From Flavobacteria bacterium RIFCSPLOWO2_12_FULL_35_11 (lineage in GTDB: Bacteria; Bacteroidota; Bacteroidia; Flavobacteriales; Flavobacteriaceae), in assembly GCA_001800975.1 (NCBI GenBank), contig MGWK01000026.1, positions 62,001 through 126,000 of the forward strand: DNA of 64,000 bases, in the 5' to 3' direction. A program made the translations under genes and the position numbers. Below the pieces are notes generated by a model. The model had not been told where the DNA came from and ran no database searches. It saw nothing but the letters and a program-made list of their open reading frames with translations. Below, piece by piece: positions 16,036 to 29,248 of this stretch (within the stretch, counting starts at the first letter, position 1; every line of letters starts with the position of its first letter).

Positions 16036-16560
16036 TTAATCTTTTTTGTAGCCAATTTTTTTTCTTGGAATTTTATTTTCTTTCTTTTCTAACAATTCAT
16101 CCAAATAACTGAAAACCAATTCTATATTTTTATTTTGATGCGATAGTTTTTTCTTTATTTCCTCAATTTCAAGTTTTAAGCTTAAATTATCGGTGAATAG
16201 TTGCCTTAATTTAGTAAATACCCTTATAATTTGAATATTTACTTTTATGGCGGTTTGGCTGTTCAAAACGCTAGATAACATGGCGATGCCTTGTTCAGTA
16301 AAAGCGTAAGGAGCATAACGAGTTCCACCCCATTTTGAGGTGCCAAATTGGCTCCTCAAGTTTTCGAATTCATTTTTGGAGAGTTCAAACATAAAATCTT
16401 CGGGAAAGCGTTCTATATTTCTGCGAACCTGCCTTTTTAACTGTTTGGTTTCCACTTTATAGAGTTCAGCTAAATCTTCATCTAGCATTACTTTTTGTTC
16501 CCTGATTAAATATATTTTATTGGTAATTATTTCATCAGGAATGGTGATTTCATTTTTCAT
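16036..16560 (-). CDS. ORF6N domain-containing protein (phage-type DNA-binding)
   Basis: IYLIREQKVMLDEDLAELYKVETKQLKRQVRRNIERFPEDFMFELSKNEFENLRSQFGTSKWGGTRYAPYAFTEQGIAMLSSVL. Confidence 0.92.
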   Translation of the reverse strand: MKNEITIPDEIITNKIYLIREQKVMLDEDLAELYKVETKQLKRQVRRNIERFPEDFMFELSKNEFENLRSQFGTSKWGGTRYAPYAFTEQGIAMLSSVLNSQTAIKVNIQIIRVFTKLRQLFTDNLSLKLEIEEIKKKLSHQNKNIELVFSYLDELLEKKENKIPRKKIGYKKD

Positions 16561-20343: not shown

Positions 20344-20370
20344 AATTGGGATTTATAACAATAATACAAA

Positions 20371-20397
20371 AAAATCCGCTAATAGCGGATTTTTAAT
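20371..20397. terminator. Intrinsic terminator
   Basis: aaaaatccgctaatagcggattttt. Confidence 0.75.
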
Positions 20398-20408
20398 GTT
20401 TTCTATTT

Positions 20409-20463
20409 AGAAATGTGCTTAGTTATTCAACATCACCGGCATCACCAACATGGTAATAAATTA
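20409..20463 (-). pseudogene. Degraded duplicate of the dnaN 3' terminus (plus a few nt of its 3' UTR)
   Basis: Minus translation ...*FITMLVMPVMLNN* matches the native dnaN end EFITMLVMPVMLNN*; 55 nt aligned to 22429-22483 with 4 mismatches, offset 2020 bp. Confidence 0.85.
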
Positions 20464-20489
20464 AATGCCATCAATCACGTCAATTGTGG

Positions 20490-21545
20490 TTAAATTATTC
20501 TCGTTGGATCAAATTTTAGGATGAACTGATTTAACTCATAAGTTGATTCCTTATTTGTTTTTGATTTAGGTGAAACTCTCGGAATAATTTCTAATTCAAT
20601 ATTATTTAATTTAAGAGTTTTCATAACTCTGTGCATTCCAAGACCTTTCCCTTTATCAGTTAAAATAAGAGCACTCTTAGCTCTAAATTTTTTTTGACAT
20701 ATTTTATTTACTTCATAATCTTCTATCCTAAGTGATAACATTTCAAATTTCACCAAAAATAAATTATCAGAAACTTCTTTAAATATTACTTTAAAATCAG
20801 AATTCTCACAACAATATTTTACAGAATTTTCAAAAATATAAAATAAAGAAACAAACAAAATATCATAGTCAAAGTATAATCTCTTTGAGTTTGAATCAAC
20901 AAATACTTGAATTTTCTTTTTTTCAAAATCATCAATAAAAATTTGAAGGATTGAAAGAATGGCCTCTTTAATAGAATATTCAATTTTTTGAACACTTGGA
21001 TTGAGTAATACTGTTTTTTCAAATACAGAAAACTCAACTTTCATTGCAAAATTGTATTTTATTAGTTTTAGTATTGTTTCTGCTGAAATATTAGGTTTGG
21101 TTGAGATTATTTCTTTTACGGTGTCTTTTTGTCTATTGATATTTTGACTTAGTACATTTTGAGGAATCAAATTTTGCAAATCGAGAATGTTATAAGTATT
21201 TAGGGAAGTCAAATTATGAATTAAATCTTGAACATATTCATTTTGATTTAATGACAAATTCTTTTTGAAATCCACAATAGAATCTAATATAATAATACTC
21301 ATTTGTATTAATTCTTTAAATAATTTTGAACTATTTATATATTTTGATTCAGTAGTCAGAACGTAAATTATTCCATTTGAATTCTCTTCGAATCCACATC
21401 TTGAGTCGACATCTCTTTGATCTATAGAAACTTTCATTTTTATAGATTTTTCAGTTATCTTTGAAGTTAAGGTCTTTAATTCTTGTGGGAAATCACCAAA
21501 TATAATCTTCCCTTGATTATCAATTATTTGTTTATAAGTGCCCAT
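20490..21545 (-). CDS. Histidine-kinase-like protein (cytosolic, HATPase_c-like C-terminus)
   Basis: H-box-like YVQDLIHNLTSLNTYNI; N-box FYIFENSVKYC; G-box LTDKGKGLGMHRVMKTL; no obvious TM. Confidence 0.7.
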   Translation of the reverse strand: MGTYKQIIDNQGKIIFGDFPQELKTLTSKITEKSIKMKVSIDQRDVDSRCGFEENSNGIIYVLTTESKYINSSKLFKELIQMSIIILDSIVDFKKNLSLNQNEYVQDLIHNLTSLNTYNILDLQNLIPQNVLSQNINRQKDTVKEIISTKPNISAETILKLIKYNFAMKVEFSVFEKTVLLNPSVQKIEYSIKEAILSILQIFIDDFEKKKIQVFVDSNSKRLYFDYDILFVSLFYIFENSVKYCCENSDFKVIFKEVSDNLFLVKFEMLSLRIEDYEVNKICQKKFRAKSALILTDKGKGLGMHRVMKTLKLNNIELEIIPRVSPKSKTNKESTYELNQFILKFDPTRII

Positions 21546-21550
21546 ATTAA

Positions 21551-22234
21551 TTATGAGTATAACTCTAAACCATATTTTTCTACAAGTGATTGAAATTGAT
21601 AAAAAATTGCATTTTTTTCTAATTTATAATCACAGATATCCCAAGCTTTATGGAAAGAATAAGAGGTGTTATTTGCAGAATAAATTATTACTTTTTTATT
21701 TGGATACTTTTGTTTAAGCATTAAAGCAATATCTAATCCTTCATATTGGCAATTTAAAAGTTTTCCAACACCATTAATATCCACAAAGAAAATGTCCGTT
21801 TCTTTAATAATAGGGATGTCAATACTTTTAATATCAATAACGGATGACGTCTTTTTCCATCCACTATTTTTTAGCGCCTTGACGACACTAAATTTAGTAT
21901 CATCATCAATGAACAAAATGTGAACCTTATGTTTAATAGAGTCAATCTTAAGCGTCCTTAAATCAGCCAAATCACCATTATCAGACTTGTCTGTTTTTGA
22001 AGAGGAATTAGAATTTACTTCAATATTAATTATATTTTTTTGGCTTGTTTTTGGTTGAATAATTGAATTTATAGGATTATTACTTGTAGCTTCTTTATTC
22101 TTTTTATAATAGTTTTTGATAGCAAAGGTAAGTGATATAAGCCCAATTAATACAGCCATTATATAGTACCAGTTAACAATCCAGAAATTTGTTGCGTCAA
22201 TTTGTAATAGAATAAGATTAGGTGTCATAAGCAA
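21551..22234 (-). CDS. Membrane-anchored response-regulator receiver-like protein
   Basis: N-terminal TM (NWYYIMAVLIGLISLTFAIKNYYKK), then receiver-like VHILFIDDDTKFSVVKALKNSGW...DIFFVDINGVGKLLNCQYEGLDIALMLKQKYPNKKVIIYSA; no DNA-binding output domain. Confidence 0.7.
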   Translation of the reverse strand: MLMTPNLILLQIDATNFWIVNWYYIMAVLIGLISLTFAIKNYYKKNKEATSNNPINSIIQPKTSQKNIINIEVNSNSSSKTDKSDNGDLADLRTLKIDSIKHKVHILFIDDDTKFSVVKALKNSGWKKTSSVIDIKSIDIPIIKETDIFFVDINGVGKLLNCQYEGLDIALMLKQKYPNKKVIIYSANNTSYSFHKAWDICDYKLEKNAIFYQFQSLVEKYGLELYS

Positions 22235-22438
22235 TTGATTTTCAATATTTTATATAAATATAACAGCTAAGATATAGATATATATGGAATGAATATGATT
22301 ATTATCAAGGAATCTGGTGTTTTCTAATAAATCAGGTTTCGATTATTAATTTTATTTTATTAATTCTTAAGCTTCTACTATAAAAAAGCCATAACATATT
22401 TGTTGTGGCTTTTCAATTTTATACAGACAGAATTGTGC

Positions 22439-23557
22439 TTAATTATTCAACATCACCGGCATCACCAACATCGTGATAAATTCACCGGCCTCAATACCGT
22501 CAACCGGCGTCAAAATTCCGGCCCTGTTTGGCATCGACATTTCAATCAACACTTCATTTGAATTTAAATTGCTCAACATTTCGGTTAAAAAACGGGAGTT
22601 AAATCCAATTTGCATATCGTCGCCTTGGTAATCGCAGGCCAAACGTTCTTCCGCTTTGTTTGAATAATCAATGTCTTCCGCAGAAATATTTAATTCGGTT
22701 CCAGCCATTTTCAAACGAATTTGGTGCGTTGTTTTGCTTGAGAAAATCGATACACGTTTCACCGAGTTTAAAAATGTGCCTCTGTCAACTGTCAGTTTAT
22801 TCGGATTTTCCTTAGGAATAACAGCCTCGTAATTTGGGTATTTTCCGTCTATCAATCGGCAAACCAACACCACATTGTCAAATATAAATTTGGCGTTGGA
22901 ATCGTTATATTCTATGGTAACATCACTGTTTGATCCGGCTAAAATTCCTTTTAATAAGTTTAGCGGTTTTTTTGGCATAATGAATTCCGCAGGCTGGTTT
23001 GCGGTAACATCAGTTCTTGTATACTTCACCAATTTATGGGCATCTGTCGCCACAAAAGTAAGGTTACTTGCATTAAATTGAAAAAACACACCGCTCATCA
23101 CAGGTCTTAAATCATCGTTTCCAGCTGCAAATATTGTTTTTGAAATCGCAGTGGCCAACACTTCTCCCGGAATTGTGGTGCTGCTTGGCGACTCAAGCGT
23201 CACCGCTTTCGGGAATTCGTTGCCGTCAAAATACGCCATATCATATTTCCCGTGGCTCGAGCTAATTTCTATGGTGCTGTTTTCTTCGGTTTTGAAAGTT
23301 AAAGGCTGGTTTGGAAATGTTTTTAAAGTATCCAATAATAATCGTGCTGAAATTGCCACAGATCCTTGAGATTCAGATTCAACTTCAATAACGGTGCTCA
23401 TGATTGTTTCCAAATCCGAAGCCGATATTTTTAATTCGTTTTCTTTTAATTCGAATAAGAAATTATCTAAAATTGGCAATGTATTATTGCTATTGATAAC
23501 GCCTCCCAAAACTTGGAGTTGTTTTAATAATTGACCGCTTGATACTATGAATTTCAT
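22439..23557 (-). CDS. dnaN: DNA polymerase III subunit beta (sliding clamp)
   Basis: MKFIVSSGQLLKQLQVLGGVINSNNTLPILDNFLFEL...GEFITMLVMPVMLNN. Confidence 0.98.
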   Translation of the reverse strand: MKFIVSSGQLLKQLQVLGGVINSNNTLPILDNFLFELKENELKISASDLETIMSTVIEVESESQGSVAISARLLLDTLKTFPNQPLTFKTEENSTIEISSSHGKYDMAYFDGNEFPKAVTLESPSSTTIPGEVLATAISKTIFAAGNDDLRPVMSGVFFQFNASNLTFVATDAHKLVKYTRTDVTANQPAEFIMPKKPLNLLKGILAGSNSDVTIEYNDSNAKFIFDNVVLVCRLIDGKYPNYEAVIPKENPNKLTVDRGTFLNSVKRVSIFSSKTTHQIRLKMAGTELNISAEDIDYSNKAEERLACDYQGDDMQIGFNSRFLTEMLSNLNSNEVLIEMSMPNRAGILTPVDGIEAGEFITMLVMPVMLNN

Positions 23558-28414: not shown

Positions 28415-29248
28415 ATGACAAAAGAAACCGCATTACAGATGTTTGAACAAAAGCAAGTGCGTTCCTATTGGAACGAAAACGAGGAACAATGGTATTTTTC
28501 AATTATTGATGTCATTGAAATTTTAACAGAAAGTTCTATTCCAAAGAGATATTGGTCGGACTTAAAAAAGAAACTGACAAAAGAAGGAAGCCAGTTGTAC
28601 GAAAACATCGTACAACTTAAATTTGTTGCTGCTGATGGGAAAAAATATGCAACAGATTGTTTAAACACAACGCAGTTATTTCGATTAATCCAATCTATTC
28701 CGTCACCAAAGGCAGAACCTTTTAAACGATGGTTAGCCCAAGTAGGGAGTGAACGGATTGACGAAATGCAGGATCCGGAATTATCTATTGACAGGGCTTT
28801 GGAACATTATTTACAATTGGGCTATTCTGAAAACTGGATTAACCAACGTTTAAAAAGTATTGAAATTCGCAAAGAACTTACCGATGAATGGAAAAGTAAA
28901 GGATTAAAAAAAGGTACTCAATTTGCCATTTTAACAGATATAATCACAAAAGCATGGTCTGAAAAAACGACCAAAGAATATAAAATTTTGAAAGGGTTGA
29001 AAAAAGAAAATCTTCGGGACAATATGACGAATACAGAATTAATTTTGAATATGTTGGCAGAAGCTTCCACTAAAGATATTTCGCAAGCGATAAATCCAAA
29101 GAATTTTAAAGAAAGTCAAAAAGTAGCGCAACAAGGCGGTAATGTAGCCAAAGTTGCCTTAACAGAATTGGAAGATAAAACCGGCAAAAAAGTAGTTACG
29201 GCTATCTCTGCGAGGACACTTTTGGAAAATAAAAGAAGAAAAGAATAA
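28415..29248 (+). CDS. Bro-N domain-containing protein
   Basis: VRSYWNENEEQWYFSIIDVIEILTESSIPKRYWSDLKKKLTKEGSQLYENIVQLKFVAADGKKYATDCLNTTQLFRLIQSIPSPKAEPFKRWLAQVGSERIDEMQDPE. Confidence 0.9.
   Translation: MTKETALQMFEQKQVRSYWNENEEQWYFSIIDVIEILTESSIPKRYWSDLKKKLTKEGSQLYENIVQLKFVAADGKKYATDCLNTTQLFRLIQSIPSPKAEPFKRWLAQVGSERIDEMQDPELSIDRALEHYLQLGYSENWINQRLKSIEIRKELTDEWKSKGLKKGTQFAILTDIITKAWSEKTTKEYKILKGLKKENLRDNMTNTELILNMLAEASTKDISQAINPKNFKESQKVAQQGGNVAKVALTELEDKTGKKVVTAISARTLLENKRRKE

Follow-up and report, generated by a model that had tools for sequence, protein, structure and literature searches.

The locus analysed here raises the question of what a receiver domain might do when it is fixed to the membrane, ends without an output domain and is encoded beside a soluble histidine-kinase-like partner. 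We examined it within a window of 64,000 nucleotides (the whole stretch of DNA analysed) from Flavobacteria bacterium RIFCSPLOWO2_12_FULL_35_11. With a probability of roughly one in two, we read the pair as a mobile PDC-M43 module in which the kinase-like protein, B, would sense infection and the anchored receiver, A, would act at the membrane against phage.

Both open reading frames lie on the minus strand exactly where the sequence-only reading had placed them (Table 1), with A upstream of B and 5 nt between them; A starts with TTG, and an ATG follows two codons downstream. That reading had called the system undescribed, a claim that fails because PADLOC-DB 2.0 already catalogues the family. 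A matches the PDC-M43A model over residues 22-224 and B the PDC-M43B model over residues 2-346, nearly full length and in the same order; M43 models are the only PADLOC matches of the two proteins, and nothing excludes membership. Judged by its sequence, the pair is thus a member of PDC-M43, a catalogued yet uncharacterised candidate anti-phage system. Neither A nor B had a usable family match in Pfam or NCBIfam, apart from a sub-cutoff BaeS HATPase match for B. A passage of PMC12988326 traces PDC, for phage defence candidate, to the 'guilt-by-embedding' preprint of Payne et al. 2024 (doi 10.1101/2024.01.29.577857), and a figure legend in PMC13092281 (Science 2026) includes HATPase and REC among the domains of predicted systems. 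In the literature searched, which lay apart from the Payne preprint, we found neither PDC-M43 by name nor experiments on any member, nor a paper stating that the family lacks a G1 box, exchanges membrane modules, is carried on a minimal plasmid or inserts at the dnaN 3' end. Our analysis adds to the catalogued family an account of its anatomy, its unusual nucleotide pocket, the exchange of its membrane modules and its mobility at dnaN, and it identifies homologues from E. coli and Kosakonia.

Table 1. Coordinates of the features discussed; positions are those of the window unless a locus or contig handle precedes them.
Feature	Position	Strand	Basis
Gene A, PDC-M43A, membrane-anchored receiver, 227 aa	21551..22234	-	ORF; PADLOC PDLC04646, E 3.5e-60; AlphaFold2 mean pLDDT 84.8; receiver fold matched in PDB
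Predicted N-terminal membrane helix of A, residues 15-47	22094..22192	-	AlphaFold2 helix; Kyte-Doolittle 1.86 over 19 residues
Receiver domain of A, residues 106-226	21557..21919	-	AlphaFold2 and Foldseek; DD110/111, D152, S186, K207 in 32-33/33 homologues
Codon of D152, predicted phosphoacceptor of A	21779..21781	-	Invariant, 33/33
Gene B, PDC-M43B, soluble histidine-kinase-like protein, 351 aa	20490..21545	-	ORF; PADLOC PDLC04647, E 2e-95; AlphaFold2 mean pLDDT 90.7
N-terminal beta-rich domain of B, residues 1-71, candidate sensor	21333..21545	-	AlphaFold2 strands 3-9, 14-17, 34-41, 44-55, 58-64
DHp-like helical region of B, residues 73-179	21009..21329	-	AlphaFold2 helices 73-126, 151-179; Foldseek match HK853
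Codon of H110, predicted phosphorylated histidine of B	21216..21218	-	Invariant, 33/33; also in plasmid homologues
HATPase (CA) domain of B, residues 188-345	20511..20984	-	Profile matches SrrB, YycG, HK853
dnaN (DNA polymerase sliding clamp); 3' end is the insertion target, outside the module	22439..23557	-	ORF; present in 38/38 genus genomes
Terminator-like hairpin now after dnaN	22384..22413		Resembles dnaN terminator of congener G037, not the type of most relatives
Displaced partial copy of dnaN 3' end, att-like direct repeat, far side of the pair	20419..20494	-	Repeat and alignment
Original dnaN-type terminator (AAAAATCCGCTA...), left beside acpH by the insertion	20370..20394		Terminator comparison
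Sites of the ~118-bp repeat	L086:964-1080; L170:3339-10846; L093:915-2301; G010:C1:608330-698866; G002:C18:206612-271053		

The homologous loci comprise 31 named loci from a scan of GTDB genomes and seven further records from a genome search, some of them from the same genomes; conservation was counted in a non-redundant set of 33 pairs. In 38/38 loci B comes directly after A on the same strand, as in the window; the two mostly overlap by 1-22 nt and otherwise lie 0-12 nt apart, and no third gene is constant across these loci. Since the 33 pairs keep length, order and catalytic residues, A and B are real genes.

Structural modelling with AlphaFold2, followed by Foldseek comparison with the PDB, bore out the proposed architecture of A as one N-terminal transmembrane segment, a linker (residues 48-86, disordered in the model) and a receiver fold. 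The receivers of NtrX, ArlR and PorX were matched, with TM-scores of up to ~0.78 to isolated receiver targets. D110, D111, D134, D152, K180, Y185, D202 and K207 occur in all 33 proteins, and S186 in 32. We looked for an output or enzymatic domain on A and found none; the protein ends with the receiver and has no Pfam domain.

The model of B, for which a 31-sequence alignment was the input, likewise upheld the description of a soluble kinase-like partner with an H-box-like helix and an N-box, so that HATPase and receiver folds, whose absence from structure predictions would have spoken against the proposal, were both found. Foldseek matched B to HK853 (E ~1e-13) and YycG (~1e-11) and also to WalK, and a profile search returned the HATPase domains of SrrB (2e-11) and HK853 (9e-10). 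H110 sits on the long helix 73-126, and H110, N116, N240, K243, Y244, E278, G299, G301, G303 and N339 are found in 33/33 proteins. The sequence-only reading had recognised no sensor domain in B; its first ~70 residues, however, are modelled at high confidence as a beta-rich domain and a candidate sensor. Most B homologues carry a CxxC...C...C...CC-type motif there, whereas the window member belongs to a clade whose B has lost it (alignment A8).

With HK853/RR468, WalK/YycG and SrrB the pair shares the DHp-CA and receiver folds, together with the phospho-His, N-box (N240/K243/Y244) and G2 box (G299/G301/G303) in B and the receiver set DD110/111, D152, S186 and K207 in A. It differs from these canonical two-component systems in that the kinase is soluble and the receiver is on the membrane, that no output domain is present, and that the G1 box DxGxG is missing. 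The sequence-only reading had recognised a G-box, DKGKGLG, which stands as the G2 box, but it overlooked that G1 is absent throughout the family. In B this box is replaced by M269-x-S271: an ungapped alignment with HK853 sets Met269 at the G1 Asp and Ser271 at the first G1 Gly, and Met-x-Ser is present in 31/31 rows of alignment A8 as well as in the plasmid homologues (alignment A7), the divergent L017 protein being an exception.

Because of the missing G1 box, B could be an ordinary ATP-using kinase, a user of another nucleotide or a phosphatase-like pseudokinase. In the last case B would not autophosphorylate and would serve as a nucleotide- or partner-controlled phosphatase or scaffold for A, which would receive its phosphoryl group from host kinases or acetyl phosphate. 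The exchange of the adenine-contact Asp for an invariant Met and of the first G1 Gly for Ser could mean just this, that B lacks normal ATP binding, and H110 is followed by Asn where an acidic residue is usual. However, H110, N240, K243, Y244 and GxGxG are invariant, although pure scaffolds often lose such residues, and PhoQ-type kinases likewise have no acidic residue after the phospho-His. We regard a pseudokinase as a doubtful reading that concerns the biochemistry of B and would be compatible with a defence role. Phosphoryl transfer between B and A is likely, given the invariant His and Asp, the matching folds and the fact that the two always occur as a pair. A bolder version, in which A is the effector of a two-component immunity and B, with its replaced adenine-recognition box, reads or uses a nucleotide other than ATP, such as a phage-altered one, is a long shot.

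How A is held at the membrane varies within the family. A strong N-terminal hydrophobic segment is present in 28/33 A proteins and a weaker one in 1/33, while 4/33 relatives have no N-terminal transmembrane segment and carry a C-terminal hydrophobic helix instead; the N-terminal membrane anchor predicted for the window's A is hence not universal in the family. By eye, the anchors fall into at least three types: ENYEWIFSGIG..., a two-helix type IIHNIVTLLIG...EPIIL, and NFWxxNWYY, to which the window belongs. The anchors of L075, L080 and L081 are the most similar to that of the window (scores of 158, 125 and 118, against a 99th percentile of 49 for reversed sequences). Given that L080 and L081 belong to another clade of the B tree than the window, this resemblance points to an exchange of membrane modules between lineages, with the receiver retained. 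The transmembrane modules of A matched no other plasmid proteins. The absence of an output domain and of a constant third gene, together with anchoring that is kept while its sequence varies, indicates the membrane as the likely site of action; swappable transmembrane segments would also fit a plain anchor, which weighs against A as an effector.

The genomic setting agrees with the earlier proposal of a foreign island. The pair has a GC content of 25%, compared with 34% for the 64-kb window, and in 19/19 long loci the GC content of the pair is below that of its surroundings. In the window it is flanked by dnaN and acpH, genes separated by a gap of roughly 75-90 nt in about half of the congeners and by unrelated cargo in others. 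A direct repeat (20387-20494 and 22407-22514) is 77% identical over 108 nt with an identical 29-nt core, and the stop codon of B lies inside the degraded edge of the displaced dnaN tail copy. This displaced copy keeps the terminator type of most relatives, while the intact dnaN has one like that of G037. The duplicated tail and the swapped terminators suggest an insertion that replaced the dnaN tail and pushed the old one aside, and the pair thus has the sequence pattern of a horizontally acquired insertion at the dnaN 3' end. We rejected flanking direct repeats as a general signature of insertion, as they accompany 5/38 pairs and 14/95 control windows; comparative evidence of a separate kind is available only for the insertion at dnaN.

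The distribution of the pair is patchy, with 2/38 congeners carrying it. The other copy among them, in G008, is identical to that of Lutibacter oceani, so that the window's genome probably belongs to this genus; the pairs of the window and L. oceani come from different clades. We also checked whether homologues reside mainly in a conserved housekeeping core locus, an outcome that would have counted against the proposal, and this was not the case. No M43 homologues were found in phage records, which leaves no signal of counter-defence.

Several relatives lie among defence genes. The L092 pair is located within a type I R-M operon and the L091 pair adjoins an hsdM-like gene; on the E. coli plasmid pZ1322MEC0001-2 the pair adjoins a NACHT protein, on the Shewanella plasmid pSBAL11701 a diadenylate cyclase and a 2TM effector are encoded close to it, and on a Burkholderia plasmid it is near a DUF262 protein. 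A DNA search of complete E. coli genomes did not find the E. coli pair. The 125 neighbour proteins include three DUF1016/YhcG nucleases, three resolvases and three phage integrases, counts that have no matched control and from which we claim no enrichment. On a 6.2-kb Kosakonia plasmid the pair (208 and 360 aa) is apparently the sole cargo, the other annotated genes encoding Rop, a helix-turn-helix protein, a DUF2442 protein and a short hypothetical protein, which argues that two genes suffice.

Such minimal plasmid carriage, and plasmid carriage in general, would also suit a toxin-antitoxin or plasmid-stabilisation pair in which A is a membrane toxin restrained by B; the operon is a tight two-gene unit, and a small membrane protein is a plausible toxin. 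A simple pair of this kind would have no need of the full histidine-kinase and receiver active-site set that is conserved here, and no credible toxin-antitoxin family was matched (HigA, sub-cutoff, E 0.12), so that we consider this explanation very improbable.

Many M43 pairs, on the other hand, stand alone between ordinary housekeeping genes, an observation that speaks against our model and for a regulatory two-component system that is mobile and whose membrane receiver would modulate a host membrane protein or act as a phosphate sink with no phage conflict. Its intact phosphotransfer residues would serve such accessory signalling, and single-domain response regulators without an output domain exist, as described in PMC8995066. 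However, there is no constant neighbouring target and no DNA-binding output, and the carriage among defence genes on plasmids, the apparently solitary occurrence on the 6.2-kb plasmid and the patchiness within the genus are less easily reconciled with it; we judge it unlikely. What favours a conflict role, which is plausible, is that the pair is carried on plasmids and in restriction islands, is patchily distributed and has been acquired repeatedly; we lean towards defence or another conflict as the function of the pair.

Our preferred reading of PDC-M43 as an anti-phage module may be outlined as follows. B, a soluble histidine-kinase-like protein with a modified nucleotide pocket, would work as a dimer and use its small N-terminal domain as a sensor; it would detect an intracellular cue of infection and, through H110, alter the phosphorylation of D152 in A. 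Anchored in the inner membrane by its N-terminal helix, A would change its oligomeric state upon phosphorylation and would then either be the effector itself, for which we see an even chance, or grip a host membrane target, so that phage replication is stopped. The simplest outcome of its action would be membrane damage or growth arrest.

Two known kinds of system invite comparison. Detocs is reportedly a defensive two-component system with a third gene carrying a separate effector; PDC-M43 resembles it in having two-component machinery in a mobile, defence-like setting, but from that description differs in that its receiver is membrane-anchored and a third effector gene is absent, the neighbours of the window operon being dnaN and acpH. 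The 2TM/4TM effectors of CBASS-like systems combine an N-terminal membrane module with a C-terminal cyclic-nucleotide sensor. Similarly, A is small, begins with a membrane module and ends in a domain for receiving a signal, and its gene lies next to that of a signalling enzyme, although A would sense through a phospho-receiver rather than a cyclic-nucleotide sensor and no cyclase is present in the pair. If PDC-M43 is protective, immunity would make use of a His-Asp phosphorelay whose effector is a membrane receiver, with no separate killing enzyme, and a kinase would function without the usual motif for adenine binding. With homologues on E. coli and Kosakonia plasmids, the family is directly testable in a standard host.

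Some further observations concern the neighbouring sequences. Elsewhere in the window, PADLOC candidate singletons are encoded at 28415-29248 on the plus strand (a Bro-N protein, PDC-S13) and at 16036-16560 on the minus strand (PDC-S05). On the Shewanella plasmid, the diadenylate cyclase gene is directly followed by that of a CBASS-type 2TM effector (L190:1848-2959). The dnaN 3' end is an insertion site within the genus, as tail copies with different cargo occur in three species (window 20370-22514; L150, G017; L177, G037), with two copies in tandem in G037. No recombinase was recognised in the cargo at this site. G017 and G037 have ~60 nt in common at the element end, a stretch that in the wider family gave four matches with two mismatches, compared with two in a reversed control. 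The dnaN-acpH cargo of G017 (L150:1235-6509) encodes an 826-aa P-loop ATPase (weak AAA_14 match) and proteins of 216 and 143 aa, all three with no PADLOC match, and is possibly an undescribed defence locus.

The genus also harbours integron-like arrays. A ~118-bp repeat forming an imperfect bottom-strand hairpin (z -3.0), for which Rfam gave no match, is present in 37/38 genus genomes, where it separates small genes in long same-strand arrays; a first look gave up to >100 candidates in a single genome. At the head of the array, several genomes encode a ~398-aa tyrosine recombinase, whose match to the integron-integrase profile is below the cut-off and skips positions ~180-240. In G004 (L170:1343-2509), the array recombinase lies directly after dnaN, and five copies of the repeat, separated by small genes, come next. 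The M43 pair itself lies 42-45 bp after a ~118-bp repeat in L. oceani (L086) and in L093.
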